This document shows, in pieces, positions 38,324 through 64,000 of a stretch of DNA of 64,000 nt. The position numbers and the translations under genes are program-made. The notes under the pieces are model-generated. The model had not been told where the DNA came from. It saw only the letters and a program-made list of their open reading frames with translations, and made no database searches. Positions within the stretch are counted from its first letter, which is position 1, and each line of letters starts with the position of its first letter. The stretch is from Burkholderiales bacterium 67-32 (GTDB taxonomy: Bacteria > Pseudomonadota > Gammaproteobacteria > Burkholderiales > Burkholderiaceae_B). The DNA lies in assembly GCA_001898625.1 (NCBI GenBank), contig MKUP01000004.1, positions 1 through 64,000 of the forward strand. Reading direction: 5' to 3'.

Positions 38324-39454
38324 ATGGCATCGGGAAATCAGGGATCCGCGGCGAAGGATCCGACCTTGCTGAAATTGGGGGGCGCCCCCAGGATGGGACT
38401 TCCCGGCCCGGCGGCCGAAGCCGCCACCGAAGTCGAGCGGCTGTGCGCCGATCTCGAGCGGGACGCGATGAAAGGCCTGTGGACCGTGCAAGGCCGCTCC
38501 GAGGCATTGAGCGACATCAGGCCCCATGTCTGGACCTGGAAAAAGATCCAGGCCTACCTGGACCGCGCGGGCTCGGCCATGTCGCTGGAAGACAGCCCCG
38601 TGCGCCGCGCCCTGATGCTGTGGAATCCAGGGGCGAAGGACCACTGGGATGCCACCAACACGCTGACGGCCGCCGTGCAGATGATGCTGCCCGGCGAGAA
38701 GGTCATCACGCATCGCCACATCCACTCGGCGCTGCGGTTCATCACCCACGGCAGCGGGGCGACGACCACCGTCAATGGCGGCAAGATCACCTTGTCGGCC
38801 GGCGATCTCGTCCTGACGCCGAACTGGGCCTGGCACGATCACGCCAACGAGTCCGATGAGCCGATCATCTGGATGGACGGCGTCGACCGGCCGCTGGTCA
38901 AGATGCTCGACGCCGTGTACTTCGACGTCTACCGGGACCACGGCTACCAGCCGGTGGTGAAGAACGAGCACGAGGCCGGATTCCAGACGGATCTCGACGG
39001 CCTGGATCTGTCCCGGTATTCGCCCAAGCTGGTCTACCGCTGGGAAGAAGCCCAGCGGGCCCTGGACGAGATCGAGGCCCGGAACGACATCTCGCCCTAC
39101 GACGACGTGCTGTTCAAATATTCGAATCCGATCAACGGCGGACCGATCACGCCGACCATGGGCGCGGACATCCAAAGGCTGCGGCCGGGCGTCCACACGC
39201 GGGCCCATCGCCATACCAACAGCGCCGTCTACCACGTCTACCGGGGGTCGGGCCACTCGATCATCGACGGCGAACGCTTCGACTGGGAAGAAGGAGACTA
39301 CTTCGTCCTGCCGTCCCGGGTCTGGCACGAACACGTCAACGGCTCCAGCACCGACGCCGCCGTGCTTTTCTCCATCAACGACCGGCCGGCCTACGAATCG
39401 CTGGGCCTGTACCGGGAAGAAGCCCTGAAAACCGGCAACGGTTTCCAGGCCTAG
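38324..39454 (+). CDS. Gentisate 1,2-dioxygenase (bicupin)
   Basis: 376 residues. The first cupin has the iron motif HRH (130-132) in EKVITHRHIHSALRFI and a later AWHDHAN; the second has HTRAHRHTNSAVYHVYRGSG. Gentisate dioxygenases cleave the ring between carboxyl and hydroxyl; salicylate and 1-hydroxy-2-naphthoate dioxygenases are close paralogues. AGGAGAGG lies just before the ATG. No maleylpyruvate isomerase or hydrolase is in the window, so the downstream steps lie elsewhere. Confidence 0.85.
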   Translation: MASGNQGSAAKDPTLLKLGGAPRMGLPGPAAEAATEVERLCADLERDAMKGLWTVQGRSEALSDIRPHVWTWKKIQAYLDRAGSAMSLEDSPVRRALMLWNPGAKDHWDATNTLTAAVQMMLPGEKVITHRHIHSALRFITHGSGATTTVNGGKITLSAGDLVLTPNWAWHDHANESDEPIIWMDGVDRPLVKMLDAVYFDVYRDHGYQPVVKNEHEAGFQTDLDGLDLSRYSPKLVYRWEEAQRALDEIEARNDISPYDDVLFKYSNPINGGPITPTMGADIQRLRPGVHTRAHRHTNSAVYHVYRGSGHSIIDGERFDWEEGDYFVLPSRVWHEHVNGSSTDAAVLFSINDRPAYESLGLYREEALKTGNGFQA

Positions 39455-54597: not shown

Positions 54598-55584
54598 CTA
54601 CTGCAGTTCGATCCTGGCGTCCTGGATCACTTTGCGCCACCGGGCGATTTCGCTGGAAATCAGCTCGCGTGCCTGCGCTGTCGTGCCCCCCAATACGCGC
54701 GACCCGTTGCTCTCGAGGCGTGCCCGGATCTCCGGGTTGTTCAGGACGTTCTGCATCCCCTTGTTCAGGCGCTCCACCACCGCGTCGGGCGTCTTCGCGG
54801 GGGCCAGCAGCATCCCCCAGGACGCGACCTGGACCTTGGGATAGCCGAGTTCGGTGAACGTCGCCACGTCCGGCAGCCGGGGGGAGCGATGAGTGCCGTT
54901 GCCGATGGCCAATGCGCTCAGGCCGCCGTCGGCGATCAGGCCATACATCGGTTGCAGGTACTCGAACGCGACATCGATGTCGCCGCTCTGCAAGGCGGTG
55001 TTCAGGTTCGCCGCCGTCTTGAACGGGACGATGGTGTAGTCGAGTTTCGCGTTCGACTTGAACAGCTCGGCGGTCAGGTGCTGCAGCGTCCCGATAAGCG
55101 AAATGCCCACGGTGAACCGGTCGCCCTTGGCCTTCGCTTCGCGGACCACGTCCTGGACGCTCTTGAGCCGGGACTTGCTGCTGGCGAGCATCAGGACGTC
55201 GTTGCTCGTCATGGTCGAAATCGGCACGAAGCTCTTTTCGATGTCGTAGGGGGGCGTGCGGAACAGCGACTGGCTGATCGCCGTCCCGACGCCGATGTAT
55301 ATCACCGTGTAGCCGTCCGGTGCGGCGGCGGCCACCTGCCTGATCGCCCCGATTCCGCCCGCGCCCGGGCGATTCTCCACGACGACCTGCTGGCCCAGGT
55401 CCTCGCCCAGCGCATTGGCGACGATACGGGCGATGCCATCGGCGACGTTGCCGGCGGCGAACGGCACGACCAGGGTAATGGGCCTTGCGGGAAAGTTGCC
55501 CTCGGCTGCCGCCGCCACGGCGGGCACGGCACAGGTCCACGCCAGCAAGGCGGCGCCGGCGTACTTCATCGCTTGTTGTCTCAT
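54598..55584 (-). CDS. Bug-family tricarboxylate transporter receptor
   Basis: 328 residues, signal peptide about 1-26 (ALLAWTCAVPAVAAAAEG). Bug motifs: FPARPITLVVPFAAGNVADG and VVVENRPGAGGIGAIRQV. The usual VPYKG segment is changed to IVPFKTAANLNTALQSGDID. AAGGAGG eight bases upstream fixes the ATG. It is the last gene of the operon that starts at 57666 (FAH-fold enzyme, Rieske oxygenase, Bug). Confidence 0.9.
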   Translation of the reverse strand: MRQQAMKYAGAALLAWTCAVPAVAAAAEGNFPARPITLVVPFAAGNVADGIARIVANALGEDLGQQVVVENRPGAGGIGAIRQVAAAAPDGYTVIYIGVGTAISQSLFRTPPYDIEKSFVPISTMTSNDVLMLASSKSRLKSVQDVVREAKAKGDRFTVGISLIGTLQHLTAELFKSNAKLDYTIVPFKTAANLNTALQSGDIDVAFEYLQPMYGLIADGGLSALAIGNGTHRSPRLPDVATFTELGYPKVQVASWGMLLAPAKTPDAVVERLNKGMQNVLNNPEIRARLESNGSRVLGGTTAQARELISSEIARWRKVIQDARIELQ

Positions 55585-55627
55585 ATCTCTCTCCTCCTTG
55601 GGTGCCCGACTCAATCGTTTCCTTCGC

Positions 55628-56800
55628 CTAGCCCATGAGCTGCGATGGCTTGTCGAGCCGCCGCCACTGCTTGGGCGGCTTGCCCGTCTCGACGGCGTCC
55701 ATTTCGCGCCAAAGGATCTTCCTCAGCATCGAGATGCCGCGATCCGATGCGCCCAGGCATTCGCTGGCCCGGTCGGCGATGGTTCCCTGGCCGATCAGCG
55801 CCACGTAATCCTGGGCGCTGGTCAGGCGCACCAGCGGATCGTCGGGATAGTGTCCGGCGAACAGTTCGTCGTGATGGTCGGCCGAGTTGTAGTCGTCGCA
55901 TTCGTCGAAGTAGCGCTTCAATGCTTCGTCCGCTTCCGGCGACGTCGACGGGGCGGCCCGCAGGGAAATGCGTATGGTGTGTTCGTCGTCGACCGGCACC
56001 ATCCAGTTCGTCACTTCCATCCAGGGATCGCCGGCCTTGACGCTGGGAATGACGACGGTATTGCCATAGGGAAACGTCCAATCGCTCACACGGACCTGGT
56101 TTTTTTCACCCAGTCTGCGGATGGCGGTCTGGCAGATGCCCGCCGAGGTTTCCTCATAACTGACTTCCGGCACCTCGGCGGGAATGGCCTGCCCGAAGGC
56201 GCCCACTTTTCCCATCTGGTGCGCAAAGCTCACGTGCACGGCATCCAGGGAATTTTCCGCGACCTGGAGCCAGTTGCACGGCCATATCTCCTTGCGCTGC
56301 AACAGGAAAACGCCCTCCTGCTCGCAGGAGCTCCTGCGGACAAGATCGAAATCCGGCGGCGCCCCTTCCCCCATGTACGTGAAAATCACGCCACAGTATT
56401 CCCGGACCGGATAGGCGCCGATCCGCACACTGCCCTCGGTGCCGGGGCGCTCGGCTGGCCGCTCGGTACATTGGCCGCTGCCATCGTATTTCCAGCCGTG
56501 ATACATGCAGCGCACTTGATCGCCTTCGATCCAGCCGGTGTGCAGCAACGTGCCCCGATGCGCGCACCGGGCGCCCACCAGATGGACGTTCCCGCCCTGG
56601 CCGCGGTAGAGCGTCAGATCCTCGCTCAGCAGGCGGACGCGCTTGGCGGTGCCCGCCGCCACGCTTTTCGAAAGCGCGATGGGGTGCCAGAACTGCCGCA
56701 GCACCTTGCCCATGGTGGTGTCGCCCGCGGTTTCCGTCAGGCGCTTCATGCGCTCCGCCTGCTTCTGCGAAGTCTTGCCGTCGATTTTTTCCATGTTCAT
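55628..56800 (-). CDS. Rieske non-haem iron oxygenase, alpha subunit type
   Basis: 390 residues. Rieske ligands C79-x-H81 and C98-x2-H101; mononuclear iron motif N183, D186, H189 and H194 (AENSLDAVHVSFAH). It resembles phthalate/phenoxybenzoate-type single-subunit oxygenases. No reductase or ferredoxin lies near. ATG at 56800 overlaps the stop of the upstream gene by ATGA. The FAH-fold partner suggests that ring opening products are processed by the same operon. Confidence 0.87.
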   Translation of the reverse strand: MNMEKIDGKTSQKQAERMKRLTETAGDTTMGKVLRQFWHPIALSKSVAAGTAKRVRLLSEDLTLYRGQGGNVHLVGARCAHRGTLLHTGWIEGDQVRCMYHGWKYDGSGQCTERPAERPGTEGSVRIGAYPVREYCGVIFTYMGEGAPPDFDLVRRSSCEQEGVFLLQRKEIWPCNWLQVAENSLDAVHVSFAHQMGKVGAFGQAIPAEVPEVSYEETSAGICQTAIRRLGEKNQVRVSDWTFPYGNTVVIPSVKAGDPWMEVTNWMVPVDDEHTIRISLRAAPSTSPEADEALKRYFDECDDYNSADHHDELFAGHYPDDPLVRLTSAQDYVALIGQGTIADRASECLGASDRGISMLRKILWREMDAVETGKPPKQWRRLDKPSQLMG

Positions 56801-57666
56801 CCCACCTTCACGCACAGCGGATCCAGCCCGCTGACCTGGATTTGCAGATCGTCGCCCGTGGCGAGAAAACGATTACGCGCGGAACCTACCCCCGCCGGCG
56901 TACCGGTCGCGATGACATCGCCGGGCAGCAGCGTCATGTAGGAGGACAGCGCAACGATGAGTTCCTCGGTGGAAAAGATCATTTCGGTCATGCTCTCGTC
57001 CTGCACGAGTTCGCCGTTGAGCCGGGTCGAGATCCGCAGGGTGCGCGCGCGCAGGGCCTCGACGACGTCCGGCCCGCAGGTGATGGTGGGGCCCAGGGCG
57101 GACGCGCCGTCCAGTCCCTTGGCCGCCGTCCAGTCGGGCCAGGTTTTCGCGTCCGGCCCGGGTGGGCCGAGCGACACTCGCGTCAGGTCGCGTGCCGAGC
57201 CGTCGTCCAGCGCACAGACGCCGGCGACGTGATCCAGTGCCGTTTCGAGCGTCGCATCCTTGCAGACGCGGCCGATGACGACACCGATCTCGCCTTCGTA
57301 GTCGAATTTGGCCGTTTTTCCCGCGTTGGGATTCAATACCCCGCCATGCGGGACGAAATTCGAAGGGGCCTTGTAGAAAATGACCGGGCGAACCGGTGGC
57401 TGCGTCTTGGCCTCGGCGCCATGCTCCCGGTAGTTGACGGCGACCGCGAAAACGCGGGATGCCCGATCGAGAGGAGGCAGGAGCCGCGCCTGTTCGGCCG
57501 CCACCCTGCGGGTGGGGTTGCCGGCGCCCGCTTCCAGGATGCGCGGAAGCTCGTCGCCCTCGCACACGATATCGACGTGGCCGTCCCGGGGGCAGCCCAC
57601 GACGGTCTTGCCGTCGACCAGGTAGCGTCCAACGTTGAAATGCCTGTTTGTCACTGTCATCTTCAT
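56797..57666 (-). CDS. Fumarylacetoacetate hydrolase-family enzyme
   Basis: 289 residues. The FAH fold is seen in VFAVAVNYREHGAEA, IFYKAPSNFVPHGG, the metal-site FDYEGEIGVVIGR, and LLPGDVIATGTPAGVGSARN. Members hydrolyse C-C bonds of dioxo acids, decarboxylate oxaloacetate or hydrate pentadienoates in aromatic catabolism. First gene of its operon and coupled to the Rieske gene. ATG at 57666 or 57660. Its promoter carries block B. Confidence 0.87.
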   Translation of the reverse strand: MKMTVTNRHFNVGRYLVDGKTVVGCPRDGHVDIVCEGDELPRILEAGAGNPTRRVAAEQARLLPPLDRASRVFAVAVNYREHGAEAKTQPPVRPVIFYKAPSNFVPHGGVLNPNAGKTAKFDYEGEIGVVIGRVCKDATLETALDHVAGVCALDDGSARDLTRVSLGPPGPDAKTWPDWTAAKGLDGASALGPTITCGPDVVEALRARTLRISTRLNGELVQDESMTEMIFSTEELIVALSSYMTLLPGDVIATGTPAGVGSARNRFLATGDDLQIQVSGLDPLCVKVG

Positions 57667-59340: not shown

Positions 59341-60588
59341 CTATCCCAGGTAGCGGGCGCGCGGCCTGAGCATCACCCCCGCCATGCGCTGTTCGATGGC
59401 ATGGGCGATCCATCCGGCCGAGCGCGCCAGCGCATAAAGCGCCCCCGATGAACGGCGCGGCAGGCCCAGAGCATGGCACAGCACGGTCAGCGCCGCCTCG
59501 GCGGTGGGCGCCATGCCGGTGCGCGCCTGGACCGCGGCCAGGTATCCGGTCCAGTCCGGCCGGCGCCCGCGCGTGGGCTGCGCGCCCGCCGCCAGGGACA
59601 AGAGGGGCGCGACCCGCGGATCGCCCTGGGGATACATGCGATGGAAGAATCCCGGCGCCCGGCCGCTGGAACGCAGCGATTCCTCGACGCGCTCCAGGAA
59701 TCCCGCCTCGTCGGGCGCTTCCAGCAACAGGTCCTCGATGCGCCGGTACACCCGCCGGCTGCGCGAATTGCTGTGCACGCTGAGCGCGGCGTTCAGGCAA
59801 TGCGGCAGGCTGGCGCCGCTGGAGGCGGCAAGCCGGACGGCCACGGCCTGGGGCGTCAGGTGATGATCCGCCAGCAGTACCAGGGCGGCGTTGACGGCGC
59901 GTTCGCGGACCGGATTCGCCTGCGTGCCGACGGCTCTGAGGATGTGGGCCGCGAGTGTCTCGCCTTCGCGGCCCATGACGAACCCCACCTCCGGACCCAG
60001 GTAGCCCAGGCAACCGGCGAACAGGGACAGCGCGGCACGCGCGTCGGCCAGAGTCGTGCCATGTCGCGTGTCGTGGCGAGAGTCGCCGGCGACCGCGAGC
60101 AGCGAGACCGCCACGCTGAAGTACTGGATGGGCTCCATGGTCCCTTCCAGCTTGCGGAACACGTGGGCCGCCAGCGCCGGCAGCGGCTCGGGCGGCCAGG
60201 TTTCGGGCTCCTCCGGGCGCACGCCGGTCCACAGCAGCTCGGCCAGGTTCTCGAACCGCTCTCCGCTTGCCGCCAGGTCGACCGCGGCAAATCCCCTGTA
60301 GGCCGGCCCCCGCGGGGTGATCTCGGTCACGGCGGTCTGGATGATGGGCTCCGACCAGTGCGGCTGGTGGCTCCCCCCTTTCGAGGGCCCGCCTTCGGCC
60401 CGCGCGCGGCTGCGCGATCCCATCCGCTCCACGTCCTCGCGCAGGTACATGACCGGTCCGTCGTCGCCCTGGCGCTGGCGCCGTATCCACCCCCGGCTGA
60501 CGTAGGCATAGAGCGTCTGCTTCTTGACGCGCAAGGCCTGGGCCGCGTCGTCGGCCGTCATGTAGTGGACCTCGTCGATTCCGGGCAT
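59341..60588 (-). CDS. Citrate synthase-like protein with N-terminal MerR/excisionase-type DNA-binding domain
   Basis: 415 residues. Residues 8-55 form a helix-turn-helix (YMTADDAAQALRVKKQTLYA, then YVSRGWIRRQRQ and YLREDVERM). Residues 75-415 match citrate synthase (RGPAYRGFAAVDLAASG, EPIQYFSVAVSLLAV, LLADHHLTPQAVAVRLAASS), with the citrate-synthase His in ADHHL. The C-terminal Arg region ends WIAHAIEQRMAGVMLRPRARYLG, cut here as IAHAIEQRM and RPRARYLG. The combination suggests a metabolite-sensing regulator rather than a housekeeping enzyme. AGGAG seven bases before the ATG. Divergent from an amidohydrolase. Confidence 0.8.
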   Translation of the reverse strand: MPGIDEVHYMTADDAAQALRVKKQTLYAYVSRGWIRRQRQGDDGPVMYLREDVERMGSRSRARAEGGPSKGGSHQPHWSEPIIQTAVTEITPRGPAYRGFAAVDLAASGERFENLAELLWTGVRPEEPETWPPEPLPALAAHVFRKLEGTMEPIQYFSVAVSLLAVAGDSRHDTRHGTTLADARAALSLFAGCLGYLGPEVGFVMGREGETLAAHILRAVGTQANPVRERAVNAALVLLADHHLTPQAVAVRLAASSGASLPHCLNAALSVHSNSRSRRVYRRIEDLLLEAPDEAGFLERVEESLRSSGRAPGFFHRMYPQGDPRVAPLLSLAAGAQPTRGRRPDWTGYLAAVQARTGMAPTAEAALTVLCHALGLPRRSSGALYALARSAGWIAHAIEQRMAGVMLRPRARYLG

Positions 60589-60623
60589 GTCCTGGCTCCT
60601 GTTCCCATGCATTCCGGCGCTGG

Positions 60624-60772
60624 ATATTGATCAATAAATCAACTTCTACCCGTGGAATGGCCTGGTCTATGCTTGGCCAATCATGTTCCGTTCGGGCATC
60701 CCGTCCAGCAGCATGGATCGACCTGCGGACATCATATATTGATTTGAATCACGCTCAAGCAATATTGATCAA
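60624..60772. promoter_or_regulatory. Three ATATTGATYWR sites in the divergent promoter
   Basis: ATATTGATCAA occurs at 60624-60634 (inside the palindrome TATTGATCAATA) and at 60762-60772; ATATTGATTTG is at 60736-60746. The outer two lie 36 and 35 bases from the two divergent start codons. TTGATT (60739-60744) and AATATT (60761-60766) could be -35/-10 of the amidohydrolase gene, overlapped by the sites. Confidence 0.55.
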
Positions 60773-60806
60773 CATGGTATTTCCCTCACCCGGAGCAGGC
60801 CTCCCC

Positions 60807-61922
60807 ATGATCATCGACACCGATTCCCACGTCATCGAATCCGAAGCGACCTGGGCCCATCTCGATCCCGCCTACCACGCCCGCCGGCCCCTGCCTTTCG
60901 CCGCGCCCACGGACACCGGCTTCCAGGACTGGAACACCTTCTGGGTCATCGACCGGAAACTGCGCCATTTCGGCGCAACCCCCATCGCCGGCAACGCCAT
61001 GGCCGCGCGCAAGACCTTTGCGCCGGGCGTCCAGCAGATCACCGACGTCCCGGCACGCGTGGCCGCAATGGACAGGATGAAAGTCGGCAAGCAGATCGTC
61101 CATCCGTCGTTCGTGCTCTCGACCCTGAGCGAGGATCCCGATCTCGAAGCCGCGCTGATCCGCAGCTACAACACCTTCATGGCCCGCGCCTGCGCCGAGT
61201 CGGGCGGACGCATCTTCTTCAACGCCGTCGTGCCGTATCGCCAGCCGGACGTCGCGGTCGAGGAAATCCGCCGCGTGCGCAAGCTGGGCGGCGCGGTCAG
61301 CGTCCTGGCCCGCGGCCTGGAGTGGGACCGCCCCATGGACGATCCCCGGCACTACCCCATCTTCGCCGAAGCCGAACGCCAGGGGCTGCCCATCGTCGTG
61401 CACCTGGGCCTGGGGTCTCCGGCCATGTACGGCATGTTCGACGGCCTGACCCACCCGCCGGCCGAGCGCAAGACCTTCTATCCGCCCTACTCCCGGCGGC
61501 TGCTCAGCACCCTGACCGTCCAGTACGCCTTCTACAACCTGATGGAAGGCACGCTGCTCGACGACTTCCCGCGCCTGAAATGGGCCTTCCTGGAAGGCGG
61601 CGGATGCACCTGGATGGCCGCCGCGCTGCGCACCATCGAACGCGGCGGCAAGGCCAACGCCGCCGACTACTTCGCCAACGGCCGCATCCACGTCGGCAGC
61701 GAACCCGACGACGACATCAACTACGCGGCCTCGGTGCTGGGCGAACAGGCGCTGCTGGTATCGAGCGACATGCCGCACTTCGACGAGGCCGCGCACGACA
61801 GCATCGCCGAAGAATACGAGGAACGGGACGACCTGAGCGCCGCGCTGCTGGAGAAGATGTTCCACCAGAACGCCTCGCGCCTGTTCGATTTCGCCGCGGC
61901 GACGGTGGGCGGAGCACGCTGA
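60807..61922 (+). CDS. Amidohydrolase-2 family metal-dependent hydrolase/decarboxylase
   Basis: 371 residues. IIDTDSHVIESE gives the first-strand DxH; IVVHLGLGSP the barrel His; WAFLEGGGCTWM and VSSDMPHFD supply later His/Asp, as in ACMSD-type decarboxylases and related hydrolases. It could decarboxylate or hydrolyse an aromatic acid. The ATG at 60807 gives the family N-terminus; an in-frame ATG lies at 60774. One base separates it from the DszB-like gene. Confidence 0.85.
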   Translation: MIIDTDSHVIESEATWAHLDPAYHARRPLPFAAPTDTGFQDWNTFWVIDRKLRHFGATPIAGNAMAARKTFAPGVQQITDVPARVAAMDRMKVGKQIVHPSFVLSTLSEDPDLEAALIRSYNTFMARACAESGGRIFFNAVVPYRQPDVAVEEIRRVRKLGGAVSVLARGLEWDRPMDDPRHYPIFAEAERQGLPIVVHLGLGSPAMYGMFDGLTHPPAERKTFYPPYSRRLLSTLTVQYAFYNLMEGTLLDDFPRLKWAFLEGGGCTWMAAALRTIERGGKANAADYFANGRIHVGSEPDDDINYAASVLGEQALLVSSDMPHFDEAAHDSIAEEYEERDDLSAALLEKMFHQNASRLFDFAAATVGGAR

Positions 61923-61923
61923 C

Positions 61924-62979
61924 ATGACCGCCGCCCGGACGCTGTGGTACACGCGCTGCCCGCTGCCGACCGCCTCGGGAGTGGCCATCGAACGCGGCCT
62001 GCTCGACGCCGCGTTCGCGCCGCTGGGCATCGCCGTGCAGTCGCTCAACGCCTCGCTCGACCGCCAGGTCCGCGAGGCCCATTTCGATCACGGCCAGCCC
62101 GGGCTGTTCCGTCAGGGCGGCATGATCCCGCCGATCTGGAGCCGTTCACGCGGCGCCGACACCCTCGTCATCGCCACCGGCTGGATCGATGAATACCAGG
62201 CGGTGATCGCCCTGCCCGACAGCGGCATCCGCGACGGCGGCGACCTGCGCGGCAGGCGCCTGGGCGTCCCCTGCCGGCCGGGCGAACAGATCGACTACTG
62301 GCGGGCCATGTGCCTGCGCGGCTATCACAGCGCGCTCCAGCTTGCGGGCCTCGCGCCCACCGACGTGGAATTCGTCGCGCTGCCCATCCACGAAGGCCAG
62401 ATTCCCACGGGCGGCGCGTCGCAGCGGGGTTCGCTGTGGCACGGCGCGCCCCGGGCCCGGCGGCAGAGCCGCGAAGCGCTGGCCCTGGTCCGCGGCGAAG
62501 TCGATGCCATCTACACCGCCAGCCCGGCCGGCGCGCAGCTGACGGCCTTCCTGGGCGCCCGGATCGTGGTCGACATCGGCGCCGCGCCGTCTCCCGCGCT
62601 GCGCAGCAACAACCAGGTCCCGGCCATCCTGACGGTGGACGGCAACCTGGCGCGCACCCGGCCCGAGCTGGTCGTACGCTACCTGGCGGCCCTGTTCGAC
62701 GCCGCCGACTGGGCCCGCGCCCATCCCCTGGAAGCGGACGCCATCCTGTCCGAAGACGTCGGCACCACGCGCGAATGGCTGGTCGCGGCCCATGGCAGTG
62801 ACGTCGCGGCCAGGCTCGCGCCGGTGCTCGACCCCGCCCATGTCCAGGCGGTCGGCGCCCAGAAGGACTTCCTGCTCGGCCTGGGGCTGCTGGAAAAGGA
62901 CTTTGACCTGCAGGCGTGGATCGCCCCGGAGTTCATCGAAGCGGCCGCCGCGACGCGAGGCTCCCATGCAACTGCCTGA
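61924..62979 (+). CDS. DszB-like desulfinase/SsuA-fold protein without signal peptide
   Basis: 351 residues, annotated by eye as the periplasmic-binding-protein fold (NMT1/SsuA). It has no signal peptide, so it is cytoplasmic. Its motifs follow 2'-hydroxybiphenyl-2-sulfinate desulfinase DszB: C12 in LWYTRCPLP (DszB nucleophile Cys27), H53 in EAHFDHGQP and R63 in LFRQGGMIPP (DszB His60 and Arg70, same 10-residue spacing). DLRGRRLGV, ALVRGEVDAIYT and the C-terminal WIAPEF also align. A C-S or C-C lyase role is therefore plausible; a soluble binding protein is the alternative. It is coupled to its neighbours. Confidence 0.65.
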   Translation: MTAARTLWYTRCPLPTASGVAIERGLLDAAFAPLGIAVQSLNASLDRQVREAHFDHGQPGLFRQGGMIPPIWSRSRGADTLVIATGWIDEYQAVIALPDSGIRDGGDLRGRRLGVPCRPGEQIDYWRAMCLRGYHSALQLAGLAPTDVEFVALPIHEGQIPTGGASQRGSLWHGAPRARRQSREALALVRGEVDAIYTASPAGAQLTAFLGARIVVDIGAAPSPALRSNNQVPAILTVDGNLARTRPELVVRYLAALFDAADWARAHPLEADAILSEDVGTTREWLVAAHGSDVAARLAPVLDPAHVQAVGAQKDFLLGLGLLEKDFDLQAWIAPEFIEAAAATRGSHATA

Positions 62980-64000
62980 ACCCCTTTCGTCGGTATCGCC
63001 GCCCCGGCCGCTGTCGGCCGCCGGGCGCGGCGTCGTGGCCAGCGCCCATCCGGCGGCCAGCGCGGCCGGCCGGACCATGCTCGAGCGCGGCGGCAACGCC
63101 ATGGATGCCGCCATCGCGATGGCGGCGGCGCTGGGCGTGGCGCAGCCGATGATGAGCGGCCTGGGAGGCGACAGCTTCATCCTCTGGTACGACGCCGCGA
63201 CGGGCCGGATCACGTCCGTCAACGGCTCGGGCCCGGCGCCTGCGGCGGCCGCGGACGACCCGGCGCGCACCCTGCCCATGCGGGGCCTGGGTTCGGCCTC
63301 GGTTCCCGGCGCGGTGGATGCGATGTGCCTGGCCTACGACCATCATGCCAGCGGCCGGCTGTCCTTCGGCGAACTGCTGGCGCCGGCGATCGAACTGGCG
63401 GAACGGGGATGCGAGACACCGCATTTCTGCGCCCGGTTCTTCGCTCTGAACGAAGCGCTCCTGGCGGCCGATCCCGGCGCGCGCCAGGCCTTGTTGATAG
63501 ACGGCCGCGTGCCGCGCGAAGGCGAATTGCTGCGGCAACCCGACCTCGCGCGCACGCTGGAACGCCTGGCGACGCGCGGCCGCGACGATTTCTATGGCGC
63601 GGGCCTGGGCGCCCGCCTGGCCGAACTCAGCCGCCAGACCGGCGGCCCCTTCCGAGAATCGGACTTCGACGGCGTTTTCGCCGAGATCGCGGCCCCCCTC
63701 CAGGTTCCCTACGGCGATGGGTGGGTGGTCAGCAACCCGCCCGTCGCCCAGGGCTTTGTCCTGCTGGAGGCCCTGGGCATCCTGGACCGGCTGGACCTCC
63801 CTGCGGATGACCACGCACTGCGCGCGCATTGCATGATCGAGGCGCTCAAGCACGCCTTCGCCGACCGCAACGATTTCCTGGGAGACCCCCGCTTCACGGC
63901 CAATCCGCTGCCCCAGTTGCTGGCCGCGCCGCGCCTGGACCGGGTCGCCGCCACCATCGACCCGTCGCGGGCCGCCACCGCGCTGCCGCGCGCGCGCTGG
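62966..64000 (+). CDS. Gamma-glutamyltransferase family protein, 3' end outside window
   Basis: 345 residues visible, open at the right edge. N-terminal GGT pattern: GVVASAHPAASAAGRTMLER, GGNAMDAAIAMAAALGVAQP and MSGLGGDSFILWYDA, then GSASVPGAVDAMCLAYD and NPPVAQGFVLLEALGIL. The autoprocessing Thr lies beyond the window. Family members hydrolyse gamma-glutamyl or related amide bonds (also cephalosporin acylases). No signal peptide is seen. It overlaps the DszB-like gene by 14 bases, so the three plus-strand genes form one operon. Confidence 0.85.
   Translation, partial: MQLPEPLSSVSPPRPLSAAGRGVVASAHPAASAAGRTMLERGGNAMDAAIAMAAALGVAQPMMSGLGGDSFILWYDAATGRITSVNGSGPAPAAAADDPARTLPMRGLGSASVPGAVDAMCLAYDHHASGRLSFGELLAPAIELAERGCETPHFCARFFALNEALLAADPGARQALLIDGRVPREGELLRQPDLARTLERLATRGRDDFYGAGLGARLAELSRQTGGPFRESDFDGVFAEIAAPLQVPYGDGWVVSNPPVAQGFVLLEALGILDRLDLPADDHALRAHCMIEALKHAFADRNDFLGDPRFTANPLPQLLAAPRLDRVAATIDPSRAATALPRARW

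Follow-up and report, generated by a model that had tools for sequence, protein, structure and literature searches.

The gene at positions 61924..62979 (plus strand) of the window, by which we mean the whole 64,000-nucleotide stretch of contig MKUP01000004.1 from Burkholderiales bacterium 67-32 that was analysed, encodes a protein of the DszB desulfinase family and not an SsuA-type binding protein. We further propose, with roughly even confidence, that this protein is a soluble, cofactor-free lyase performing one step of an aromatic-degradation operon, with a sulfinate as the most likely leaving group. The open reading frame is intact, starts with ATG and codes for 351 residues. A single base separates its ATG from the TGA (61920-61922) of the PF04909 'amidohydrolase' gene ahead of it (60807..61922, plus strand), and the ATG of the gene behind it, coding for a GGT-like Ntn hydrolase, lies at 62966 (a start chosen in our analysis), giving a 14-nt overlap. 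This 1-base gap and the start inside the preceding gene imply tight coupling of the three genes. The GGT-like gene (62966..64000, plus strand) is cut by the end of the window; the full gene runs over C4:62966-64597.

A sequence search of the PDB at E<=1 returned DszB as the sole matches, in its wild-type (9e-26) and C27S (2.4e-24) forms, with 106 identities in 319 aligned residues (33%). The initial annotation had placed a Cys, a His and an Arg within the motifs of DszB at identical His-Arg spacing, and the alignment bears this out: C12, H53 and R63 align with C27, H60 and R70 of DszB, and the His-Arg spacing is 10 in both proteins. G66 aligns with G73, and T10 with S25 (a Ser to Thr change), so that a Ser or Thr stands two residues ahead of the Cys in both. 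All five residues of the active-site model described for DszB thus have counterparts, with Thr in place of Ser at one of them (PMC6100217). Along with the fold, the full-length homology and the Cys/His/Arg/Gly site that the two proteins share, there are differences: the Cys-His spacing is 41 as opposed to 33 in DszB (8 longer), and N26 and Y63 of DszB are R11 and H56 here. An AlphaFold model of the protein (pLDDT 91.4, pTM 0.90, 42 alignment rows) gave DszB as its three best PDB matches in a fold search (top match 2de3, E 8.4e-24, TM 0.77), while the first SsuA followed at E 6.6e-15. A structure in which C12, H53 and R63 lay apart would not be decisive against kinship with DszB, since H60 of DszB is described as entering the active site only on substrate binding (PMC6100217).

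The comparison with SsuA/NMT1-type binding proteins shows a similar fold, but the DszB-like protein carries Cys12 and His53 and, by the length of its N-terminus and the model, is cytoplasmic and free of a signal peptide, as had been claimed at the outset. The Cys is residue 12 and the first predicted strand of the model begins at residue 6; the Cys motif was located in 103 family rows, and 95 of these have fewer than 20 residues ahead of it (with start codons partly chosen by us), which leaves little room for a signal peptide. Pfam NMT1 matched at 6e-7, and the score against NCBIfam SsuA_fam was 82.2 bits, short of the cut-off of 163.5. In a tree of 107 rows, the SsuA-like binding proteins of the operons and another NMT1-type protein lie beyond a long branch (93/93) and DszB lies on the same side as the DszB-like family; deep placements in this tree are unsure because of several long branches. 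Membership among the SsuA proteins is therefore ruled out by the PDB search, the NCBIfam score, the tree and the fold search together, and a chance match of the motifs by the PDB sequence match and by residue conservation in the family rows. By both sequence and fold, the protein is closer to DszB than to SsuA.

The family was defined by scanning 84,980 species genomes with sequence patterns. The scan gave at least 593 stretches, of which at least 532 code for a relative, and 78 loci were taken from it. As the patterns covered WYTRCP or FRxGG, residue invariance in these 78 loci is partly by construction. A pattern-free homology search of 101 related genomes found a DszB-like match at E<=0.001 in 17 of them; 17 individual matches were strong, covering most of the protein at 41 to 100% identity, and the other matches were weak or partial. 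C12, H53 and R63 were all present in the 16 strong matches read at full length, the 17th having been viewed at its N-terminus only. Among 399 genomes drawn from the order, the window's genome included, seven carry a DszB-like gene at E<=1e-40, so the gene is widespread there but uncommon. In the family alignment (104 rows, 102 different sequences, two rows being DszB), R63 and G66 are found in all 104 rows, C12 in 102 and H53 in 101. Since RxGG is described as conserved across DszB homologues and assumed to be structural (PMC6100217), R63 alone is weak evidence. The only rows without Cys12, L062:7203-8291 and L068:146-1222, read WYARSP (Cys to Ser) and have Ile at the catalytic His; to judge from their sequences this is a natural loss of both residues. 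Such a joint loss is expected if Cys12 and His53 cooperate, though the two rows belong to one lineage and count as one event. The remaining exception is a very distant row, L057:3265-4263, with an Asp at the H53 position that is perhaps misaligned. R11 stands beside the Cys in 102 of 102 non-DszB rows and H56 is found in 101 of these 102, whereas both DszB rows have Asn and Tyr at these places.

Within the tree, the window's protein and six others form clade A (n=7, support 100/99), which a sister group, clade B (n=3), joins at 100/97. Clades A and B differ from the other family rows at several positions, e.g. C130, R180 and Q231, and because of these substitutions their substrate, or even their reaction, may differ. 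Likewise, function may vary within the family, since some single genomes carry two or more members. The window's genome itself has a second family gene (locus L032, C12:306650-307621, 43% identical), and in genomes G321, G173 and G176 two to three DszB-family genes lie within about 10 kb of each other (loci L147, L152, L157, L151, L155, L158, L150 and L153). In several plasmid records such genes are labelled 'ABC transporter substrate-binding protein'. We know of no activity for any clade-A protein.

Clade A is hosted by the window's genome, Pigmentiphaga kullae, Alcaligenaceae SAGV5, Reyranella sp. CPCC 100927, Reyranella soli, a Rhodospirillales MAG and a Burkholderiales MAG; the Rhodospirillales MAG locus is nearly identical to that of Reyranella sp. 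CPCC 100927 and hence not independent. Gene order is the same in all seven loci: a divergent citrate-synthase-like/HTH gene, the PF04909 gene, the DszB-like gene and the GGT-like gene, then an SsuA-type binding protein, a MabB-like cupin, an ABC ATPase and a permease. A GST isomerase gene follows the permease in six loci and is without a match in the seventh, L038; the GST-like protein of L033 passes the maleylacetoacetate isomerase model. In the window's genome the operon extends from C4:59341 to about C4:69119, beyond the end of the window. Its SsuA-like binding protein has a signal-like N-terminus and is separate from the DszB-like protein; the transporter resembles the SsuA/SsuC sulfonate type and scores below the NCBIfam cut-offs. 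No sulfite oxidase, DszA-type or DszC-type gene was found among the operon genes, while in the control, plasmid pMyong1, dszB was recovered between an LLM gene and dszC. The operon thus differs from that of DszB (2'-hydroxybiphenyl-2-sulfinate desulfinase, 2DE2/2DE3) both in lacking dszA and dszC, in agreement with the new gene context asserted in the initial annotation, and in containing a ring-cleavage dioxygenase.

The divergent gene (59341..60612, minus strand), found at the same place in 7/7 clade-A loci, codes for a citrate-synthase-like protein with an N-terminal HTH_17 domain, possibly a regulator derived from an enzyme that may sense a metabolite. The intergenic region (60613..60806) contains repeated TATTGATCAA-type palindromes, a candidate operator of the HTH protein; stretches rich in TTGAT/ATCAAT occur at the equivalent place in the Reyranella and Burkholderiales loci. 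Further away, the minus strand at 54598-57654 carries genes for a TctC-type receptor, a LigXa-like Rieske oxygenase and an FAH-family hydrolase. The latter two also occur in Pigmentiphaga kullae and SAGV5, with no match in the Reyranella loci.

The PF04909 protein is the closest partner of the DszB-like protein. The two genes are paired at every clade-A and clade-B locus examined, and all six close PF04909 homologues in the 101 related genomes (E<=1e-40) directly adjoin a DszB-like gene. Among the 399 genomes of the order the only homologue is the window's own, and in a profile search of the loci scores above 600 bits came only from clade-A and clade-B loci, with six weak matches (18 to 26 bits) elsewhere. 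The hydrolase role implied for this 'amidohydrolase' neighbour in the earlier reading is doubtful: the profile matches and the ligand pattern suggest that it may well be an O2-using dinuclear-metal oxygenase of the amidohydrolase-related (ARO) type. A profile built from 10 PF04909 orthologues matched, best first, 8sm8, PtmU3 (6omp), 8sm9, 4dzi, 8sm6 and 6m1w, of which 4dzi is uncharacterised and 6m1w is the aminoisobutyrate monooxygenase hydroxylase; gamma-resorcylate decarboxylase and ACMSD came lower. D6, H8, H199, E263, D321 and H324 are invariant in all 10 orthologues. As we read the printed alignments, 8sm8 has identical letters at H199, E263, D321 and H324; for D6 and H8 the match is to PtmU3, within an alignment stretch that is not significant alone. 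The enzymes of the 8sm entries are described as dinuclear oxygenases of the amidohydrolase-related group whose ligands are three carboxylates and three His, and one of these enzymes, SfbO, as holding sulfate in its site and attacking aminoethylsulfonates, the best of which is unlikely to be the natural substrate according to its authors (PMC10811679). In kind and number the six invariant residues fit this set of three carboxylates and three His, their ligand role being read from the alignments.

This likeness to AROs (AibH2, PtmU3 and SfbO), which lies in most of the best PDB profile matches and in the three carboxylates and three His, has limits: identity is low, and no small Rieske protein is nearby. 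About 90% of AibH2-like proteins are described as having an adjacent small Rieske protein (PMC10401708). A motif scan of 10 loci for such a protein gave only a large Rieske oxygenase (L033 and L034) and an unlikely match in L039. In addition, the model of the PF04909 protein is weaker (pLDDT 75.8). Its fold search has 4dzi as the first and PtmU3 as the third match, lists oxygenases together with ACMSD and gamma-resorcylate decarboxylase, and does not tell the protein apart from ACMSD-type decarboxylases. On the sequence profile and the ligand pattern, an ordinary amidohydrolase or decarboxylase is less probable than an oxygenase.

For the second partner, homology to gamma-glutamyltransferase was correctly noted and the catalytic Thr is kept, within a GDTT motif in all seven clade-A proteins, but the specificity implied by the name appears not to be. 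In E. coli GGT the Arg of the FRE motif binds the alpha-carboxylate of the gamma-glutamyl group; the corresponding segment reads NGSG, NASG or NGAG in 7/7 GGT-like proteins. A true gamma-glutamyltransferase is unlikely given the absence of this Arg. The protein scores 297.7 against the GGT equivalog model TIGR00066, short of the cut-off of 357.85, and its best PDB match is 2nlz, annotated as a cephalosporin acylase. With the catalytic Thr kept and the gamma-glutamyl-binding Arg absent, it is probably an amide hydrolase of other specificity. The GGT-like gene has no match in the clade-B stretches examined, which would fit a role in freeing an amine, since the substrate of the clade-B dioxygenase has no amino group.

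What links the operons of both clades to aromatic compounds is the ring-cleavage dioxygenase. The MabB-like cupin of the window's genome scores 677.5 bits against the NCBIfam model of 5-aminosalicylate 1,2-dioxygenase (cut-off 650), which is passed in six of seven clade-A loci (L038, at 618.7, is below) and, among the 399 genomes of the order, only in the window's own. Its true substrate could be another substituted salicylate or gentisate. In the mab cluster of Comamonas QT12, 3-aminobenzoate is described as degraded through 5-aminosalicylate (PMC9584955). The clade-A operon resembles this cluster in its dioxygenase and differs in having the PF04909, DszB-like and GGT-like proteins and in lacking a MabA-like flavin monooxygenase, a type found nowhere among the annotated operon genes. 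Among 398 genomes of the phylum there is one other MabB relative at E<=1e-110 (713 bits), in genome G636, where it lies near a 3-hydroxybenzoate-6-monooxygenase-like gene (423.7, cut-off 459) and an FAH-family gene. This genome, with its mab-type cluster, has no DszB-like match at E<=0.001; on this single case, then, a 5-aminosalicylate pathway can do without the DszB-like gene. A search of 208 plasmid records containing relatives of the MabB-like cupin gave none at >=60% identity, and hence no close plasmid context. The window holds a second gentisate-1,2-dioxygenase-like gene at 38435-39451 (TIGR02272, 273.9 bits, under the cut-off of 442.1).

In all three clade-B loci the DszB-like gene lies beside a similar PF04909 gene and one for homogentisate 1,2-dioxygenase (HgmA). 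Two different dioxygenases for para-oxygenated or para-aminated aromatic acids therefore accompany the same PF04909 and DszB-like pair, and a gentisate/MabB-type or homogentisate-type dioxygenase is near the DszB-like gene in 10/10 loci of the two clades. We also considered whether the clade-B HgmA is a special extra copy. The case for this is weak: HgmA_C matches number three in G007 and two in G059, and two each in the window's genome, G002 and G005, so that genomes without a known such pair have two as well.

Outside clades A and B, neighbours were compared by clustering the ORFs within 9 kb of the DszB-like gene at 82 loci, with clades assigned by hand from the tree; the counts are lower bounds, as clustering misses some genes (e.g. 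the LLM gene in L047). DszA belongs to the LLM flavin monooxygenases and DszC to an acyl-CoA-dehydrogenase-like family, and the annotated dsz locus of pMyong1, where an LLM gene and dszC flank dszB, fits this assignment. Clade F (31 loci from Rhizobiales and kin, many of them close relatives) has an LLM flavin monooxygenase at 29 loci, a DszC-type acyl-CoA-dehydrogenase-like gene at 28 and a dipeptide-type binding protein at all 31. The corresponding numbers in clade E (11 loci) are 6, 10 and 10, and the deep rows (n=7) have LLM at 3 and DszC-type at 2. Clade D (15 loci) has LLM at 4; clade C (9 loci) has mainly TctC genes (8), and by clustering no Dsz-type family is among its most frequent neighbours. 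The sulfur context is thus not family-wide, given clades C and D. Nevertheless, about half of the 82 loci lie near DszA- or DszC-type flavin oxygenase families, and this organosulfur appearance supports a desulfinase ancestry. Neighbours of a similar type occur in annotated plasmid records, which add a sulfite oxidase in S. meliloti pSymA and a sulfurtransferase and a cysteine dioxygenase in Variovorax. From its gene content the pSymA cluster (L111:9989-18944) looks like an organosulfur-use island: it combines two DszB-family genes and the sulfite oxidase gene with genes for an NtaA/DmoA-type oxygenase and an acyl-CoA-dehydrogenase-like protein.

The analysis establishes family membership, residue conservation, the fold, the conserved operon with its PF04909 pairing, and the dioxygenase context. 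From these data we infer catalysis as such, sulfinate as the leaving group, an oxygenase function of the PF04909 protein, the substrate and the sequence of steps in the following scheme. The SsuA-type ABC importer would bring a substituted aromatic acid into the cell, where it would be modified by the PF04909 protein, probably an oxygenase with a dinuclear metal site, and by the GGT-like amide hydrolase. In the DszB-like enzyme, R63 and G66, perhaps with R11, would bind an anionic substituent, most likely a sulfinate; Cys12 would deliver its proton to the ring carbon, H53 would take up negative charge, and SO2/sulfite would be released. The product would be an electron-rich para-oxygenated or para-aminated benzoate (of the 5-aminosalicylate or gentisate type, or the homogentisate type in clade B), whose ring the MabB-like or HgmA dioxygenase would open. 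The chemistry follows that computed for DszB, where calculations are described as favouring electrophilic aromatic substitution by the Cys proton, with the His as the most helpful residue; an older proposal has the Cys attack the sulfinate sulfur (PMC6100217). In the same account, mutation of the His to Gln lowers activity only about 17-fold, and the Arg and Gly hydrogen-bond in the site yet raise the computed barrier (PMC6100217). Proton-driven substitution should be easier on electron-rich rings, e.g. of the hydroquinone or aminophenol type, and it would therefore make chemical sense for the enzyme to produce a dioxygenase substrate of the gentisate/aminosalicylate or homogentisate type. Both the intact DszB site and the family context make sulfinate the most likely leaving group. 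A fuller version, which we regard as possible but doubtful, is a flavin-independent counterpart of the 4S pathway that feeds carbon metabolism: a Mn/Fe-type dinuclear oxygenase and a DszB-type desulfinase would desulfurize an electron-rich, sulfur-bearing (amino)hydroxybenzoate or phenylacetate prior to MabB- or homogentisate-type ring opening.

The same fold and proton delivery could instead serve a carbon leaving group, an electron-rich hydroxy- or aminobenzoate being decarboxylated or deacylated without any sulfur. We consider this somewhat unlikely: although it would suit the lack of a sulfur gene among the operon genes, the ring-cleavage dioxygenases in both clades and the clade-specific substitutions, the residues with which DszB binds and attacks sulfinate are kept, the transporter is of the sulfonate type (though under the cut-offs) and many relatives lie in Dsz-like contexts. 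The constant presence of the dioxygenase, at 10 of 10 loci, also raises the question whether the protein acts after ring opening, e.g. as a thiol-dependent cis-trans isomerase or C-C hydrolase on products of the maleylpyruvate or maleylacetoacetate type. In favour of such a role, the GST isomerase is without a match at L038 and in two of the three clade-B stretches examined. Against it, six of seven clade-A loci already have this isomerase, and a DszB site kept in full speaks for chemistry like that of the ancestor; we think it quite improbable.

Finally, the protein might have descended from an SsuA-type binding protein and serve in the cytoplasm to bind or sense a ligand, with no catalysis. 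The periplasmic-binding-protein fold and the NMT1 and sub-threshold SsuA_fam matches given above would be explained in this way. Against it, a binding protein of this family with a signal-like N-terminus is already encoded in the operon, no known protein is nearer than DszB, and Cys12 and His53 persist in nearly every family row, as counted above, making this role very unlikely in our judgement.

DszB is described as needing no cofactor, unlike other desulfinases, and as a bottleneck of fuel desulfurization (PMC6100217). We found no report of a DszB-type enzyme beyond the Dsz pathway in the open-access literature, subscription journals being mostly outside this search. To our knowledge, the enzymes of the DszB superfamily are almost all unstudied. 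If the lyase assignment is true, DszB chemistry would be used far more widely, with at least 532 relatives among the scan matches listed, and clade-A-type enzymes could be starting points for improving the slow DszB step. The superfamily would comprise hundreds of enzymes, many of them annotated as ABC transporter binding proteins, and for one of its branches the operon of this soil bacterium offers a concrete assignment that can be tested. It would link a DszB-type lyase, a probable dinuclear oxygenase and ring cleavage, and so points to an undescribed route for the breakdown of substituted aromatic compounds.
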